In this document: one piece after another, positions 57,200-64,000 of the stretch
Layout: each line of letters opens with the position of its first letter
Position numbering within the stretch: the first letter of the stretch is position 1
NCBI RefSeq assembly: GCF_003201475.1
Contig: NZ_QJJK01000013.1
Span: forward strand, 124,001-188,000
DNA length: 64,000 nt
DNA from: Chelatococcus asaccharovorans
GTDB taxonomy: Bacteria; Pseudomonadota; Alphaproteobacteria; Rhizobiales; Beijerinckiaceae
Direction: 5' to 3'
Notes under the pieces: generated by a model
Told to the model about the DNA's origin: nothing
Database searches by the model: none
Seen by the model: the letters and a program-made list of their open reading frames with translations, nothing else
Position numbers and translations under genes: made by a program

Positions 57200-57264
57200 C
57201 CATCTCCCATCTGTATCCTAAGGCGATGAAATCGTTATATATCAATTGTTTAAATACCTTGATT

Positions 57265-57297
57265 TGGGGGACACAATGGGGGACAAGTTGGGGGACA
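57265..57297. repeat. Three TGGGGGACA direct repeats with 12-bp period
   Basis: TGGGGGACA occurs at 57265, 57277 and 57289, each followed by three variable bases. They lie between the attachment fragment and the integrase ATG at 57322. In the long reading frame they would encode WGT-x three times; more likely they are arm-type binding sites for the integrase or a directionality factor. Confidence 0.75.
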
Positions 57298-57321
57298 CCA
57301 CTCCCGAAGGACTCCTTTTTA

Positions 57322-58791
57322 ATGGCCCCCGCGAAGCTCGGAAAACACCTCGAATGGCACGGTAGACGCATCAGGGTTGTCGTGCGGGTGCCTCCCTCGC
57401 TGGTCACCAGTGTGGGCAAGACAAAGCTTAAAGTCGTCCTCGAAACCACTGACCCGCTAGAGGCAGAACGGGAGAAGGTGGACGTGATAAAGTCTCTGAG
57501 AGCTTCCCTGCGCGGCGAGCAGCGGCAGCCTCAGGCTCGGAGCCTAACCACCGAGGCGCTCGAATGGCGTGATATGATTGAGCGAGAGGCGGCCGGTGAG
57601 CAGGTGGTTATATCTGCCGACGAGGAACTCGATCTCCGGGACATTCTCGGAGATCACGTCGACGATATCGAACGTAAGCACGGCTACAATGCTGGCAACG
57701 AGTTCGCAGAAATCGCCCTCGGTCGGGCAACCCCACTCGGCGCCCTTCTAGATCGTTGGTTCACCGAGAAGGCGGACCTTTCGATCGGTTACAAGGAAGA
57801 CATCAGACGTGCTGTGTCTCGGCTGGAAACGTGGTGCGGAAAGAACCGAGTCCCCAAGACCGTCGAGGCCATCACTCGGCGCGTAGCTGGCCGCTTCATC
57901 CATGAGCAGTATGTGCTGCCCAGGGAGCACCATAAGACAGCCAACAAGGACCTGTCGTGTTTGAGGTCCTATTGGCGATGGATGCGTAAGCGCTATGACA
58001 TCACCGACAACCCATGGAGCGAACAATCCGTTGAAGCCCCAAGGCGCCGGACAGAGACAGCGAGCGACAAGAAACGCCCGTTTACGGATGATGAAGTGAC
58101 GAAGCTACTCGGCGGCATCCGGCTAAAGCGGGAGCGGGACTTCTCTCTCGTCAGCTCTTTGAGCGGGCTCCGGCTGGAAGAGGTGGCGGGGCTAAAGGTG
58201 GCTGATTGCGCCGATGACGCACTCAAGGTCAGAGACTCGAAGACGGAAAGCGGCCTTAGGACTGTACCGCTTCACCCCTCGCTTAAGCCGCTGATCACCG
58301 AGAGGACCCGCGCTAAGGCGCCAGATGATTACCTTTTCGATGACCTTGGAGAGCAACGAGAGGGCTCCAAGCGGGATCGCTCAGCGCCTGTCAGTCAGGC
58401 CTTTACGCGAGAGCGCCGCCGCCTAAAGGTCGATGAGCGGGGATCGGCAGACCAGCGACAATCGAACATTGATTTCCATAGCTGGCGCAGATGGTTCATT
58501 CGTAAGGCCGTCGAAGGTATCGAGCGCGGCGCAGTCGGCTATACGCCTTGGACGATCGCAAACGTTGTCGGTCACAAAGTCGAAGGTGGAGCAATCGACG
58601 GAGTGGCTCTGCCACTCAAAATGACCATGGGGCGTTATCCAGGGCCAGCATCCGTTGAGTCCATGCGGGCATGTGTCGAGGCTGTCGCCTTACCGAATGG
58701 CGTAAGCACCGCCAGAACCGATACGAAAAGACAGCCCCGCCGCGCGAAACTGAAGCTGAGAAGAGACACAACAAACCCATCAACTTCGTGA
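57322..58791 (+). CDS. Tyrosine recombinase (phage/ICE integrase)
   Basis: A 489-residue site-specific recombinase. ATG 57322 with GAAGGA upstream is preferred to 57226, whose ribosome site is too close and whose extra codons run through the TGGGGGACA repeats. Catalytic residues in order: R284 (SGLRLEEV), K307 (DSKTESG), H386 and R389 (DFHSWRRW), H418 (VVGHKV) and Y439 (MGRYPG), all present. The N-terminal 250 residues hold arm-binding and core-binding domains (SAM-like, about 140-240). It would integrate or excise the 57.2 kb-onward element at a tRNA-Ser end. Confidence 0.93.
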   Translation: MAPAKLGKHLEWHGRRIRVVVRVPPSLVTSVGKTKLKVVLETTDPLEAEREKVDVIKSLRASLRGEQRQPQARSLTTEALEWRDMIEREAAGEQVVISADEELDLRDILGDHVDDIERKHGYNAGNEFAEIALGRATPLGALLDRWFTEKADLSIGYKEDIRRAVSRLETWCGKNRVPKTVEAITRRVAGRFIHEQYVLPREHHKTANKDLSCLRSYWRWMRKRYDITDNPWSEQSVEAPRRRTETASDKKRPFTDDEVTKLLGGIRLKRERDFSLVSSLSGLRLEEVAGLKVADCADDALKVRDSKTESGLRTVPLHPSLKPLITERTRAKAPDDYLFDDLGEQREGSKRDRSAPVSQAFTRERRRLKVDERGSADQRQSNIDFHSWRRWFIRKAVEGIERGAVGYTPWTIANVVGHKVEGGAIDGVALPLKMTMGRYPGPASVESMRACVEAVALPNGVSTARTDTKRQPRRAKLKLRRDTTNPSTS

Positions 58792-59190: not shown

Positions 59191-59562
59191 GTGTCAAACT
59201 CCCGCGATCTTCTCGCCCTTTTCAACATCGTGCGGTCGTTTCGTGAATTGGAGAAGGCGCCGCACAAGGACTTCTCAATGACCAATGTGCTGCTGATCCT
59301 TCACGTGGCGTACAACCCAGGCGCTACCATGGCTGATGCGGCGAAGGCGGCGGGGGTATCAATCCAGTCAATCCAGCGCCGGGTTGAGGCGCTAGGTGGA
59401 TACGGCCTTGTGGAGGTTGTCCGTGATCCTCACGAAACACGGCGCTTTCTCATCTTCCTGACGACAGAGGGCGTGCGGGTCGTGCAGGAGGTGCTTTCCC
59501 ATTTACACCCAAACGAGGTCATCGAGTTCTCAACTATGACGGCAGCGGGTTCTGGCCCCTGA
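59191..59562 (+). CDS. MarR-like winged-helix protein
   Basis: A 123-residue protein starting with GTG, GGAG seven bases upstream. The central part (ATMADAAKAAGVSIQSIQRR, then VEALGGYGLVEVVRDPHETRR and a beta wing) is a MarR/PadR-type winged helix. It is shorter than most MarR proteins and lacks long dimerisation helices. Inside a mobile element it may control excision or the neighbouring genes. Confidence 0.75.
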   Translation: MSNSRDLLALFNIVRSFRELEKAPHKDFSMTNVLLILHVAYNPGATMADAAKAAGVSIQSIQRRVEALGGYGLVEVVRDPHETRRFLIFLTTEGVRVVQEVLSHLHPNEVIEFSTMTAAGSGP

Positions 59563-59710: not shown

Positions 59711-60233
59711 GTGAATGAGCTGAGTGAGAGCGCGCTCGGAATTTACACGGGCGCTTGTGGCTCTCCGAGTACCGCCATGGCTGTCCGTAAGCTCGACGCG
59801 GATGAGAAGCTGATTCTCCCGTACTCAGAGGCAAAACGGATATGCCTGAGAAAGATTGCAAGCCACCCACGGCCTCCGCCCAAAAAAGACTTCCACTGCT
59901 AGGATCAGTAAAAGTGGTCGCGCCAAAGTCGATCGGATCGGCTTAGGAATGCACACTGGTAAGCCGGCCGTCCTCGGCTCCGAGAGTGGCCTCTACAAGC
60001 TCATTATGCGCTCGGACAAACCTGAGGCCCGCGCCTTCCAGGACTGGGTGACTCGTGAGGTTCTCCCCGCGATACGCAAGACAGGCAGTTACGTGCTCCA
60101 GGGGGCTGACCGCTCGACGGTGGCTGAAAGCTCCGTCTCGGAGATGCCAGACGTGCCCGGCCTCGTGGTATCGGTTAACTTATTGGTATGGCGATCATAT
60201 TCGCCCTTGCGTGCCAATTACCCCCGACAATAG
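59711..60233 (+). pseudogene. Broken BRO-family phage antirepressor
   Basis: Two frames together spell a BRO-N domain: GIYTGACGSPSTAMAVRKLD then, 150 bp on and in another frame, SESGLYKLIMRSDKPEARAF followed by QDWVTREVLPAIRKTGSY. An intact protein would read these continuously. The N-terminal strand and the C-terminal domain are absent or scrambled, so the gene is dead. It supports a prophage origin for part of this element. Confidence 0.8.
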
Positions 60234-60757: not shown

Positions 60758-61306
60758 ATGCTGGTAGGCTACGCGAGAACGAGCACCATCGAACAGGCGG
60801 CAGGCCTGGAGGCCCAGGTCAGGGACCTGGAAGCTCTCGGCTGTGAGCAAGTCTTCACTGAGCAGACCAGTTCGGTAGGGCCTCGCAAGAAGCTCGATGA
60901 GGCTATCGCCTATTGCCGCAAAGGCGACACCTTCATGGTCACCAAGTTTGACCGGCTGGCCCGTTCGGTCTCACACCTCGGGCAGATCGTCGAGCGCCTG
61001 AAGGAGAAGGGCGTTGCCCTCCGGGTTCTCGATCCCGCCATCGATACGTCCAGCGCCACGGGTGAGTTGGTCCTCAACCTGATGGGGTCCATAGCCCAGT
61101 TCGAGCGTCAGATGATGCTGGAGCGGCAGCGGGAAGGCATCGCCAAGGCCAAGGCCGATGGCAAGTACAAGGGCCGGAAGCCGACCGCGAGGGCCAAGGC
61201 TGACGAGATCAAGGCCCTATCGGCTCAAGGCATCAGCCTTTCGGAGATCGCGAGGCGCCTGGAGATCGGCAAGGCATCAGTTCATAGGGTCCTTGCTTCG
61301 GGCTAG
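60758..61306 (+). CDS. Serine recombinase (resolvase/invertase family)
   Basis: A 182-residue small serine recombinase. The nucleophile is Ser9 in GYARTST; KFDRLARS (63-70) holds the active-site Asp and Arg residues; the long E helix (MGSIAQFERQMMLERQREGI) and C-terminal helix-turn-helix (140-180, ISLSEIARRLEIGKASVHRV) are complete. It matches Tn3-type resolvases and Pin/Hin invertases in length. The repeats directly upstream are its probable recombination site. Confidence 0.92.
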   Translation: MLVGYARTSTIEQAAGLEAQVRDLEALGCEQVFTEQTSSVGPRKKLDEAIAYCRKGDTFMVTKFDRLARSVSHLGQIVERLKEKGVALRVLDPAIDTSSATGELVLNLMGSIAQFERQMMLERQREGIAKAKADGKYKGRKPTARAKADEIKALSAQGISLSEIARRLEIGKASVHRVLASG

Positions 61307-61676
61307 CCGTTATTGGGCCAGTCGGCTTTGTCCCGAGGGCGCGGATACAACAGAGGAAGAATTTTGGAGGTGATCGATCTCGTCGAGGCGTATGTCTAGC
61401 CAGATCGATTGCGCCGTCACATGACTACCACCTTTAATTGCACGTACCATTTGGAATAGGGGCGGTTTCAGCCTTACGCGGCACATGCTCTCGCCGCAGG
61501 TGTGCGGGCGGAGAGCTTAGAATATGGGGAACAGTCACCACCGCTAGCACGAGTTTATACAAGGCTTTGCTCGCACTTCCGCGCCTGTTTGAACGTGGTC
61601 CGCTGCAAAACCCCGCCAGCCCGTGAGAGCCTTCCGGCAGTCCTCACATCGTCCCTCACACCCAGACGACTTAATC
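61307..61676. other. Leader region of the two-gene unit, no gene recognised
   Basis: The 370 bp between the resolvase stop and the terminator carry no translation with family likeness and no tRNA. It must hold the promoter for the downstream pair or for a short transcript that ends at 61710. Confidence 0.4.
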
Positions 61677-61726: not shown

Positions 61727-62380
61727 ATGCCCCGCACTTGTCGATGCTGTTGGCGATCTACCACCAGCCGTTTCGCTGTCTACTGTCCCGCCCACCAATC
61801 CAGAAACCGCCGTCATGGTCATCCCGAGCAACTTGCGATCACAAAAGACGTCCTTAAGCCTAAGCTCCGAACCATAAGGCGGCGGATCGCAAAGAACAGT
61901 GTCAGCCCACTCTGGGACTGCCTCGAAGCCCGCTGGGGTGTCATTCTGGAGCACAGTAAAGGGGTGCTCGCCTCAAAGGCGCCAATGGACCGCCATTATC
62001 GCACCGCGGCCCGCGAGTTAGCCAAGCTCGGAACTTCAGTCGAAGCCGACACCATCGTCGAGACGGCTCTCGCTATGGTCGTACTGCAGTCCTTCGAGCC
62101 GCAACGTTTTAAATCGGACAAAGCCTTCCGCGTGCAGCTATCACGGCGGCTTCGGGGCCTCACGGATTTGAACGCCGGCCTCTGGTACGACCATACGACC
62201 GGCAAGATGAAGCGCGCCTATCGGGAGCTGTCGCCAAAGGCGGCCGTTATCATTGCCGGCATCATCACTCAGGCTTTTGGACCAGCCGGCCTACGGATCG
62301 CTCAGCTTGAAAGGATGGACCACGAGGAAAGGAATTATGGCGTCTCCACGGTGCGTAGGGCGCTGGAGGCCTTGGATTGA
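61727..62380 (+). CDS. Unknown 217-residue protein coupled to the polymerase-like gene
   Basis: A soluble protein with no family recognised. ATG 61727 has GGAG eight bases upstream. The first 25 residues hold a cysteine/histidine cluster (CRCC at 5-8, YCPAH at 19-23) that could bind zinc, then a basic RRHGHPEQLAI segment; the middle and C-terminus look helical (RHYRTAARELAKLG, FRVQLSRRLRGL, AYRELSPKAAVIIAG). The stop overlaps the TTG start of the next gene (TTGA), so both are made together. It may be an accessory DNA- or RNA-binding factor for the polymerase-like protein. Confidence 0.7.
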   Translation: MPRTCRCCWRSTTSRFAVYCPAHQSRNRRHGHPEQLAITKDVLKPKLRTIRRRIAKNSVSPLWDCLEARWGVILEHSKGVLASKAPMDRHYRTAARELAKLGTSVEADTIVETALAMVVLQSFEPQRFKSDKAFRVQLSRRLRGLTDLNAGLWYDHTTGKMKRAYRELSPKAAVIIAGIITQAFGPAGLRIAQLERMDHEERNYGVSTVRRALEALD

Positions 62381-63651
62381 TTGCCAGCACTGCGGTTCGT
62401 TATACATGGCTCGACCCGTGGCTCGGCGTCCGAGATGGCCCTTTTCGGGAGTTGTGCAAAGCCGTAGGCGCCGACCTTGCCTCGCATGAGAAGGCCATGG
62501 GGTGCCGCTTAAGGAGGCGCCGCCCCATCGACCAAATTCACCACGAAGCCGCCCTTGCGACCGTGCTGGCGAACCTTGCCTATGCCACATTGGTGCCCCC
62601 CGTGGGCGGGCGCTTGGGTCTCCTCACTGGAAACAGCGACAAGGGCTTCTCTCGTTACAGCAATCGAGCCTTCGGGAAACCCTTCCGTCGTCTGCTTCAC
62701 CATCTCAAGCAACTCCGATTGATCGACCTGATAAGCTCCACCGAGCGCGGTCAGGCTTCATCCGTCGCGCCTTCAGATGCATTCCGCTCCGCGCTGAACC
62801 CCGTCGCGATTGACCTCTCCGACTTCCGCCGGCTGGAGGGCGAAGAGGTCATCATCCTGTCCCGCAACACTCATCAAGGAGCGGGTCGGAATCGAACCGT
62901 GACCCGCGAATATGTCGATTATGAAGAAACAGCCGCAACCCGTGGGTTGAGGGAGTCGATACAGAGGATCAACCGCTTCTTGGAGGCGGCCGATATCGCC
63001 TTTGTCGATGACGGCCTTGGCCTAGTTGATCCCTATCAACGGCGCCTGACGCGCCATTTTGTCATGAGAGAGGAGGACCTTGAACCATGCTTTGATCAGG
63101 GAGGGCGCCTCTTCGGGGGCTTCTGGATGAACCTGAAGTCGTCACGCAGGGCGGCCATCAGGATCAACGGCGAACCCGTCGGTAATCTCGACTTTTCTTC
63201 CCTGTTCCCACGCTTAGCCTACGCCAGCATCGGCGTTTCGCCTCCCGTGAGCGACCTCTACGCTATCCCTGGCCTGGAGGGCTATCGCAACGAGGTGAAG
63301 TCCGTCCTGAACTGTCTGCTGTTCGACCACTTCAGAAGACGGACATGGCCAGAGGGTATCGACGGACTGCCGCGTGAGTGGACAGTCTCTCGAACCAAGG
63401 CCGCTATTGTCCGCCATCATCCCGAGCTACGCGGGTGTCTAGGACAGGGCCTAGGCTTGAGCTTCATGTACACGGAGAGCGTCATTCTTGTCCAAGTTCT
63501 TCATGAACTCATAGACCAGGGCATCGTTGGCCTCGGTCTCCATGATGGCCTTCTCGTCCCTCGTTCCAAGATCGAAAGGACAAAGATGATCATGGAGCGT
63601 GTCGCTCATGAGGTGGCGTCTGTGCCCCTTCCCGTAAGTATCAAGGCATAG
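62377..63651 (+). CDS. Small family-A DNA-polymerase-like protein
   Basis: A 424-residue protein whose C-terminal half shows the three polymerase motifs of the PolA/T7-RNAP superfamily. Motif A is LDFSSLFPRLAYA (catalytic D272, R279, the D-x6-R spacing of DYSQIELR). Motif B is YRNEVKSVLNCLLF (R304, K308, N312, F316, the R-x3-K-x3-F-x3-Y spacing of the O-helix). Motif C is GLHDGLLV (H389, D390), with Gly where HDE has Glu. There is no exonuclease domain; the first 260 residues are unassigned. TTG 62377 has GGAGG seven bases upstream and overlaps the previous stop. Inferred role: replication or repair synthesis for the mobile element. Confidence 0.7.
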   Translation: MIASTAVRYTWLDPWLGVRDGPFRELCKAVGADLASHEKAMGCRLRRRRPIDQIHHEAALATVLANLAYATLVPPVGGRLGLLTGNSDKGFSRYSNRAFGKPFRRLLHHLKQLRLIDLISSTERGQASSVAPSDAFRSALNPVAIDLSDFRRLEGEEVIILSRNTHQGAGRNRTVTREYVDYEETAATRGLRESIQRINRFLEAADIAFVDDGLGLVDPYQRRLTRHFVMREEDLEPCFDQGGRLFGGFWMNLKSSRRAAIRINGEPVGNLDFSSLFPRLAYASIGVSPPVSDLYAIPGLEGYRNEVKSVLNCLLFDHFRRRTWPEGIDGLPREWTVSRTKAAIVRHHPELRGCLGQGLGLSFMYTESVILVQVLHELIDQGIVGLGLHDGLLVPRSKIERTKMIMERVAHEVASVPLPVSIKA

Positions 63652-64000
63652 CCACGGACTTGGGCTCACCAGTACCCCCTTACTCCATTAACAAGACCCG
63701 TAACTTGCGTACCCGCCTGCTCGGCTAGGAAGTCGAGTAGCGCGAGCTCGTGTCTGCGTCCCACCTGGCGCCGCTAGTCCTGGCCACACACCTCAATCTG
63801 TCTCGTAACCTCATTGATATCCCACAACTCGCGAGGCAGCGGTGTGAGGCGTACCCCCACTGTGCCGGGACAATACCTGCGCTGCAGCCGCCCGAGCTCG
63901 ATCATCCAACAAGCATTTCCGTCCGTCGCTTCCAGCCGGATCGGCAACCCAGACGAGCACTGTCGTCAATCACTCGGAGAAAACTAATCATGAACATTTT
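63652..64000. other. Right end of window, no gene recognised
   Basis: No translation with family likeness, tRNA or second tRNA-Ser fragment was found here, so the far end of the element is probably outside the window. Confidence 0.4.

Follow-up and report, generated by a model that had tools for sequence, protein, structure and literature searches.

A small family-A-like polymerase with a zinc-finger-like partner and recurring RNase H-like neighbours in a putative integrative element of Chelatococcus asaccharovorans

The window, by which we mean the whole 64,000-nucleotide stretch of DNA that was analysed (Chelatococcus asaccharovorans, assembly GCF_003201475.1, contig NZ_QJJK01000013.1, positions 124,001 to 188,000 of the forward strand), carries close to its right end a polymerase gene lying among mobility and regulatory genes. 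The features of this region are given below in window coordinates; counts of rows refer to a family alignment of the polymerase.

57226–58791, plus strand: tyrosine integrase of the element (TIGR02224 at 4.4e-8 and PF00589 at 0.0018, both below the cut-offs; cluster shared by 16 of 21 loci)
59191–59562, plus strand: MarR-like small regulator (PF12802, 1e-6)
59856–60233, plus strand: Bro-N/anti-repressor-like ORF, N-terminally incomplete (PF02498, 7.5e-11, profile positions 57–96 of 96; phrog_130, 6.6e-22)
60758–61306, plus strand: serine resolvase (PF00239, 2e-39; cluster shared by 18 of 21 loci)
61727–62380, plus strand: zinc-finger-like (C-x4-C...C-x2-H...RHG) helical partner protein, 217 aa, with homology to upstream proteins elsewhere; frame open from 61502
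62377–63651, plus strand: family-A (TV-Pol/divPolA2-like) polymerase, TTG start, 424 aa (phrog_4756 at 7.9e-19; AlphaFold; Foldseek against PDB; hhalign to PolA)
63106–63108, plus strand: R244 of GGRLFG, aligned with the PolA GRL motif (52/52 rows; opposite GRLSS of PolA; model strand E242–247)
63190–63192, plus strand: D272, motif A, predicted metal ligand (52/52 rows; in register with the motif A Asp of PolA)
63286–63300, plus strand: R304-x3-K308, fingers helix, model H304–316 (R304 51/52, K308 52/52; in register with PolA)
63541–63546, plus strand: H389-D390, motif C, predicted metal ligand (H389 50/52, D390 51/52; in register with PolA HDE)
63750–64000, plus strand: ORF that continues beyond the end of the window (248 aa when read on the contig), followed by the RNase HI gene
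64611–65117 (window-equivalent, outside the window): RNase HI, 960 nt after the polymerase

The polymerase gene is a single open frame that shares 4 nt with the end of the frame upstream of it, start and stop codon meeting in ATTGA. The original prediction, made from the letters of this DNA, gave the product a length of 424 residues, which the frame bears out, and named the motifs D272-x6-R279, R304-x3-K308-x3-N312-x3-F316 and H389-D390, every one of which is present in the translation. A chance ORF is ruled out by conservation, since polymerase matches at E≤0.001 occur in 53 of 397 genomes of the same taxonomic family, its own included.

The family alignment comprises 52 rows, the window polymerase among them, after 4 of 56 sequences were dropped as duplicates; only a trimmed part of L028 was entered, and L051 and L054 lack sequence on the 5′ side. 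Besides the residues listed above, S368 (52/52) and D293 (50/52) are almost invariant, and R279 is kept in just 39 rows. The N/F pair of the O-helix and the HDG in place of HDE, pointed out originally as peculiarities, are real in the window protein and variable across the family: position 312 is N in 29 of 52 rows, 316 is F in 32, and 391 is G in 31 and E in 1, motif C being HD followed by G, A or S in 50 rows. Two features had been missed, namely the conserved GRL motif with R244 and an aromatic residue five positions after the motif A Asp (D+5; F277 here, Glu in PolA). At this position 33 rows carry F, 3 carry Y, 4 carry H and 1 carries E, so that an aromatic residue is found in 36 of 52. 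In PolB enzymes and reverse transcriptases, an aromatic residue at the D+5 position keeps out ribonucleotides, and this makes DNA synthesis the likelier activity of the protein.

Two members of the family deserve mention on their own. L003 carries N at the position aligned with 390 (LHNG), replacing the motif C Asp, and is possibly an inactive copy. L029 (500 aa) has a helix-turn-helix-like regulator domain fused C-terminally (residues about 441–494), which may aim the polymerase at an origin.

The AlphaFold model of the polymerase, made with 24 sequences, has a mean pLDDT of 91.3 and a pTM of 0.89. Foldseek against the PDB returned 56 matches at E≤1e-3 (best E 3.8e-5), the best 50 of which belong throughout to the family-A DNA polymerases (Taq, Bst and apicoplast enzymes), with TM-scores to the PolA structures that are low, 0.23–0.32 of the query. 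Among viral models, ranks 1–11 are proteins of 400–450 aa with TM 0.50–0.69, and one of these eleven carries the name DNA polymerase (phage Barba31A).

When the 52-row family profile was compared by hhalign with 19 PolA sequences (19 of 20 were recovered by a motif filter; of five phage proteins two were used, P0003, P0005 and P0006 being left out), the score was 31.8 (E 0.0046, probability 7.6%), and GRL, motif A, R-x3-K and HD all fall in register within a single alignment to PolA. None of 200 column-shuffled controls reached this score (mean 16.9, maximum 28.1), the reversed profile gave 14.1, and control families lay at about 16.0–20.2: integrase 17.8, T7/SP6 RNA polymerases 18.6, T7/SP6 DNA polymerases 19.1, phi29 PolB 16.0 and T4 PolB 20.0. 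Against single sequences, the PolA of the own genome scored 22.6, level with T7 DNA polymerase (22.3); the sequence signal for PolA kinship is therefore weak, and the structure carries the case. A family-B polymerase is ruled out by the control-level scores of phi29 and T4 and by a motif C of the HD type. A resemblance to PolB is nevertheless visible in motif A (DFSSLFP) and K-x3-N, next to FDVNSLYP and KLMLNSLYG of phi29.

Pfam, NCBIfam and PDB sequence and profile searches with the polymerase gave nothing useful; the matches to NCBIfam NF002507 (ribonuclease P, 0.01) and PDB 1nog (0.14) were judged to be chance. No Pfam model matches the polymerase branch in the 24 members scanned, and PF00476 (DNA polymerase I) matched 0 of these 24, window included, at E≤1. 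The PHROGs search placed the protein in phrog_4756 (function unknown), a family to which 3 of 14 control genomes also gave a match at E≤1. Neither a differing fold in the PDB comparison nor a better-scoring unrelated family in the profile libraries was encountered, and the family-A-like character originally proposed is upheld by the palm-fingers matches and by the motifs in register with PolA; so is the lack of a 3′-5′ exonuclease domain, none being recognisable. The protein differs from bacterial DNA polymerase I in this last respect and in the replacement of the D+5 Glu, the helix-O F/Y and the E of HDE. These data support the assignment of the predicted product of 62377–63651 as a palm/fingers polymerase of family A that is encoded in an integrative element and in which no exonuclease domain can be recognised.

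In a sample of the phylum, the family profile matches 24 of 398 genomes at 1e-5, and 23 of these 24 belong to the same class or closer. Named relatives (23 loci) come from Methylobacterium, Methylorubrum, Bosea, Bradyrhizobium, Kaistia, Mesorhizobium, Rhizobium and others, from which the class is taken to be Alphaproteobacteria. An initial scan of viral sequences with the polymerase by itself found no relative; direct matches at E≤0.01 include three plasmid records and six Vibrio phage records, and a Vibrio phage member used as the query matched 170 phage records, 115 of them from Rheinheimera. All six phage matches and the one annotated plasmid match are annotated as hypothetical proteins. 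The annotation note of the polymerase gene of Aeromonas phage 4L372D (L088:2854–4158) names a protein of Vibrio phage ICP1, and this much-studied phage may carry such a polymerase.

One described group to which the polymerase can be joined is divPolA2 of barbaviruses and Vibrio phages, reported in 2024 (PMC11348598, of which selected passages are used here and below). Its representative AUR84708 matches profile A1 at 2.0e-22 (hhalign 8.6e-15), a Barba31A protein does so at 5.2e-28 (hhalign 8.1e-19), and AUR84708 falls into phrog_4756 at 1.5e-93, as the window polymerase does. Judged from sequence, the placement in the divPolA2/phrog_4756 family is a certainty. The two are also alike in a size of about 430 aa, an N-terminal globular domain and the lack of an exonuclease. 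They differ in that AUR84708 has FDE where the window polymerase has HDG, and in that divPolA2 occurs in large phage genomes with variable neighbourhoods, according to the same passages. No integrase or resolvase is named in the annotations of the phage stretches covered here, where many genes are entered as hypothetical.

The other group is represented by the TV-Pols, which were described in 2008 by Iyer, Abhiman and Aravind (PMC2579912) from mobile elements where they adjoin genes for a resolvase, an integrase or Bro-N proteins. Their carriers include Methylobacterium species, one of the elements combines a TV-Pol with a resolvase and Bro-N/KilA-C, and a combined primase and polymerase activity was proposed. 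The features of this group recur in our family: a beta-hairpin that precedes motif A and bears an invariant Arg (R244 on the strand 242–247), the two active-site Asp of the palm (D272, D390), the Asp of the fingers with RxxxK (D293, R304, K308), and the neighbourhood of gamma-delta resolvase, lambda-type integrase or Bro-N/KilA-C, found in the window and at other loci. In the secondary structure of the model, one long helix (H186–204) stands before the palm; the thumb of TV-Pols is described as two antiparallel helices. The model has an N-terminal domain of about 180 aa with strands and helices; the N-terminal domain of the integrase/resolvase subset of TV-Pols, TV-PolN, is all-helical. In contrast to the TV-Pol elements, no D5 helicase was seen to recur among the neighbouring ORFs scanned here, and the polymerase has a zinc-finger protein and RNase H-like ORFs next to it. 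The main text of PMC2579912 mentions RNAseH only as a transposase fold and presents TV-Pols as lacking both fusions and conserved neighbourhood links to nuclease domains; in our family no nuclease fusion was seen, and RNase H-like neighbours occur at 10 of 61 loci.

We take the polymerase to work like a TV-Pol and to belong very probably to the subset treated in the 2008 paper. The suggestion that it might be an undescribed polymerase of integrative elements does not hold, since its motifs and neighbourhood are those of the TV-Pols of 2008 and it is homologous to the divPolA2 of 2024. In the passages of PMC11348598 used here, divPolA2 is not joined to the TV-Pols of mobile elements.

Microcystis phage LMM01, the only listed TV-Pol carrier tested, gave no match with profile A1 at E≤1 and none with profile A8 at E≤10 in a scan run without a positive control. 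When 50 of its proteins (about 250 aa at least, some very large ones being left out) were compared singly by hhalign, the best score of 25.2 (P 0.013) belonged to a protein annotated as DNA polymerase and is not significant among 50.

Biochemistry within the TV-Pol group was found in our literature search for CCPol only, and none for the window's branch. CCPol, a relative described as a TV-Pol, performs de novo DNA synthesis with MP and needs its two catalytic Asp, as stated in the parts of PMC7581432 used here. CCPol-MP of SCCmec and the PolA-SSB primases (PMC10061031, likewise used in part) resemble our locus in uniting an A-family polymerase, an integrative element and a small operon partner. 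In the PolA-SSB primases, however, the partner is an OB-fold SSB followed by a helicase, and the survey examples, in the parts used, are all from Bacillota; in the window the partner is zinc-finger-like and helical, with no PDB fold match for a relative of it and no helicase among six window proteins scanned, as detailed below.

The partner most likely starts near 61727 rather than at 61502, to judge by the alignment. It has a homologue that precedes the polymerase at other loci (hhalign 2.4e-7), and C, C, C, H, R and G are invariant in 15 of 15 aligned members. A model of the partner relative at locus L056 (pLDDT 85.6) consists mostly of helices and has no fold match in the PDB (best E 0.69). 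Perhaps the name C3RHD in the supplement of the 2008 TV-Pol paper denotes this zinc-finger type, which is a guess on our part.

Gene order was followed over 61 context loci: the window's contig, 20 of 24 initial loci and 40 further places. The partner, resolvase and integrase profiles were built from 21 named loci, and the 40 fresh ones are an independent test. The partner profile matches at 39 of 61 loci (16/21 training, 23/40 fresh); 38 of the matches are no more than 1.3 kb away from the polymerase. Of these 38, 34 lie upstream on the polymerase strand, and so do 21 of the 23 fresh ones. The resolvase is matched at 45 loci (18/21 training, 27/40 fresh) and the integrase at 41 (17/21 and 24/40). 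The Cys/His-rich protein originally said to be coupled to the polymerase is present, its frame overlapping by 4 nt, and is conserved elsewhere, and the integrase and resolvase claimed to lie beside the polymerase are likewise present and conserved at other loci.

A recurrent helicase was not seen: no Pfam family occurs in more than 3 of 92 neighbouring ORFs (25 of 55 families listed), a D5 helicase does not recur among 92 of the 190 neighbouring ORFs, and none was detected among six window proteins scanned. Since no recurrent helicase is seen, a host helicase would serve the element. At the element ends there is no convincing att repeat and no tRNA; the right end was not located because the contig stops 3.8 kb past the window, and an empty site could not be read in three genus relatives because the flanks are not kept there as a block. 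The segment 56853–57199 (about 347 bp) has further whole or partial copies of 75–91% identity in the own genome and in three genus relatives; read on the minus strand it resembles, by eye, part of a P4-type integrase, and it may be left over from insertions that took place here before.

The RNase HI gene past the window end has its four catalytic residues intact. An independent RNase H profile, made of only the two RNase HI genes of the own genome, one being this gene, was run over the 3,527 ORFs of the 61 loci; it matches at 10 loci and leaves 51 without a match. All ten matches lie on the polymerase strand, eight of them within 1.3 kb, and shuffled ORFs gave 0 matches in 17,635. The probability of such a placement by chance is about 1.4e-6 if ORFs and loci are independent, a value that is optimistic because the loci are related. 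A second profile matches at 17 of 61 loci; the claim rests on the first because the second was trained on the matches of the first. Six duplicate loci were left out of one count in this survey.

At several loci, it is the ORF before the partner that resembles RNase HI. Among 12 upstream ORFs compared with one RNase HI sequence, four (L042, L048, L052, L053) score clearly above every one of the 20 shuffles made from them, L044 does so narrowly (19.4 vs 19.2), and seven do not. The L052 ORF passes the PF00075 cut-off of Pfam (33.4 vs 25.8 bits) and matches RNase HI in the PDB at 1.6e-6; the nine other ORFs scanned beside it have no PF00075 match, and the L048 ORF reaches RNase HI in the PDB only at 0.28. 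By the residue roles that we take to be catalytic, 3 of 11 aligned RNase H-like proteins keep all four residues, 7 are without at least one (L038, L052, L053, L043, L144, L159, L048), and 1 cannot be judged. Apart from the window's element, the four residues are kept in L139 (100 nt after the polymerase) and in the viral contig L060 (overlapping the polymerase). Among the 10 matching loci, an intact RNase HI is present in 2, the window's element (L064) and L139. The literature matches listed, in which few subscription journals are covered, include no report of a polymerase and RNase H module on islands, and it is the polymerase operon with its zinc-finger partner and recurring RNase H-like ORFs that looks new.

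We consider it probable that the product of 62377–63651 is a minimal DNA polymerase of family A and of TV-Pol type, made of palm, fingers and an N-terminal domain of its own, which acts as the replication enzyme of the integrative element. A replication-start module is the best reading of the locus. The analysis establishes the family, the conserved motifs, the predicted fold with its resemblance to PolA and the gene associations; polymerase activity, priming, partner binding and the part played in element replication are inferred. The integrase and resolvase would excise the element or separate copies of it. The zinc-finger partner, supplied by the coupled upstream gene, would bring the polymerase to an origin or to single-stranded DNA, and the polymerase would extend an RNA primer or prime itself, with D272 and D390 serving two-metal nucleotide addition. 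RNase H, encoded nearby in part of the family, may process an RNA/DNA hybrid or the primer, and the polymerase would replicate the excised element.

One can suggest, as a rather unlikely development, a helicase-free start module of three genes (RNase H or its derivative, a zinc-finger binder of the origin or single-stranded DNA, and the minimal family-A polymerase), in which the RNase H protein would bind or cut an RNA/DNA hybrid at the origin and the polymerase would extend the RNA end, in the manner of ColE1 initiation but with element-encoded enzymes in place of the Pol I and RNase H of the host. In the boldest form of this proposal the polymerase would copy RNA as well as DNA; if so, it would form with RNase H the A-family equivalent of a reverse transcriptase that is paired with RNase H.

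The recurrence of the zinc-finger protein, resolvase, integrase and RNase H-like ORFs fits a module for replication and mobility better than a polymerase for repair or translesion synthesis that travels as cargo and takes no part in replicating the element. The latter is an unlikely explanation, in favour of which one can cite that the host has its own PolA and that, in the passages of PMC11348598 used here, barbaviruses carry a regular PolB besides divPolA2, for which the discoverers suggest repair or RNA polymerase activity. Those passages also report structural matches to mitochondrial RNA polymerases, which, together with the G/A/S instead of E after HD in 50 of 52 rows and an adjoining RNase H able to remove RNA primers, would suit a T7-like single-subunit RNA polymerase or an RNA primase making transcripts or primers. 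We hold this to be improbable: the best 50 of 56 PDB matches are DNA polymerases without exception, the hhalign score to T7/SP6 RNA polymerases stays at control level, and the D+5 residue is mostly aromatic. A polymerase-derived non-catalytic protein, for example a DNA-binding replication initiator, finds parallels in L003 and in some RRM-only Pol-like proteins of Bacillota elements that lost the catalytic Asp (PMC10061031, in the parts used), and is most improbable because D272, D390, R304 and K308 are near-invariant in the 52 rows.

We regard the predicted polymerase as one of a kind already described, from a branch about which little is known, and its neighbour association as new and open to testing; it suggests how such elements may start their own copying. 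The analysis joins two literatures, that of the TV-Pols of mobile elements and that of the divPolA2 of phages; the RNase H neighbour gives a concrete hint about the primer, and the start of strands by A-family DNA polymerases can be tested directly on proteins as small as these.

Other genes were met around the polymerase and its relatives. After the RNase HI gene past the window end come an ORF with a T6SS_Tdi1_C immunity domain (L064:8802–9353) and a trypsin-like peptidase (L064:9308–10918), which are either cargo or host DNA. Relatives of the polymerase have genes of defence type near them: methyltransferases, HNH and AbiU2-like proteins occur among the 92 ORFs neighbouring the polymerase relatives, and on a Thioclava plasmid (L033) an AbiE toxin-antitoxin system and a site-specific DNA methyltransferase flank the polymerase relative.
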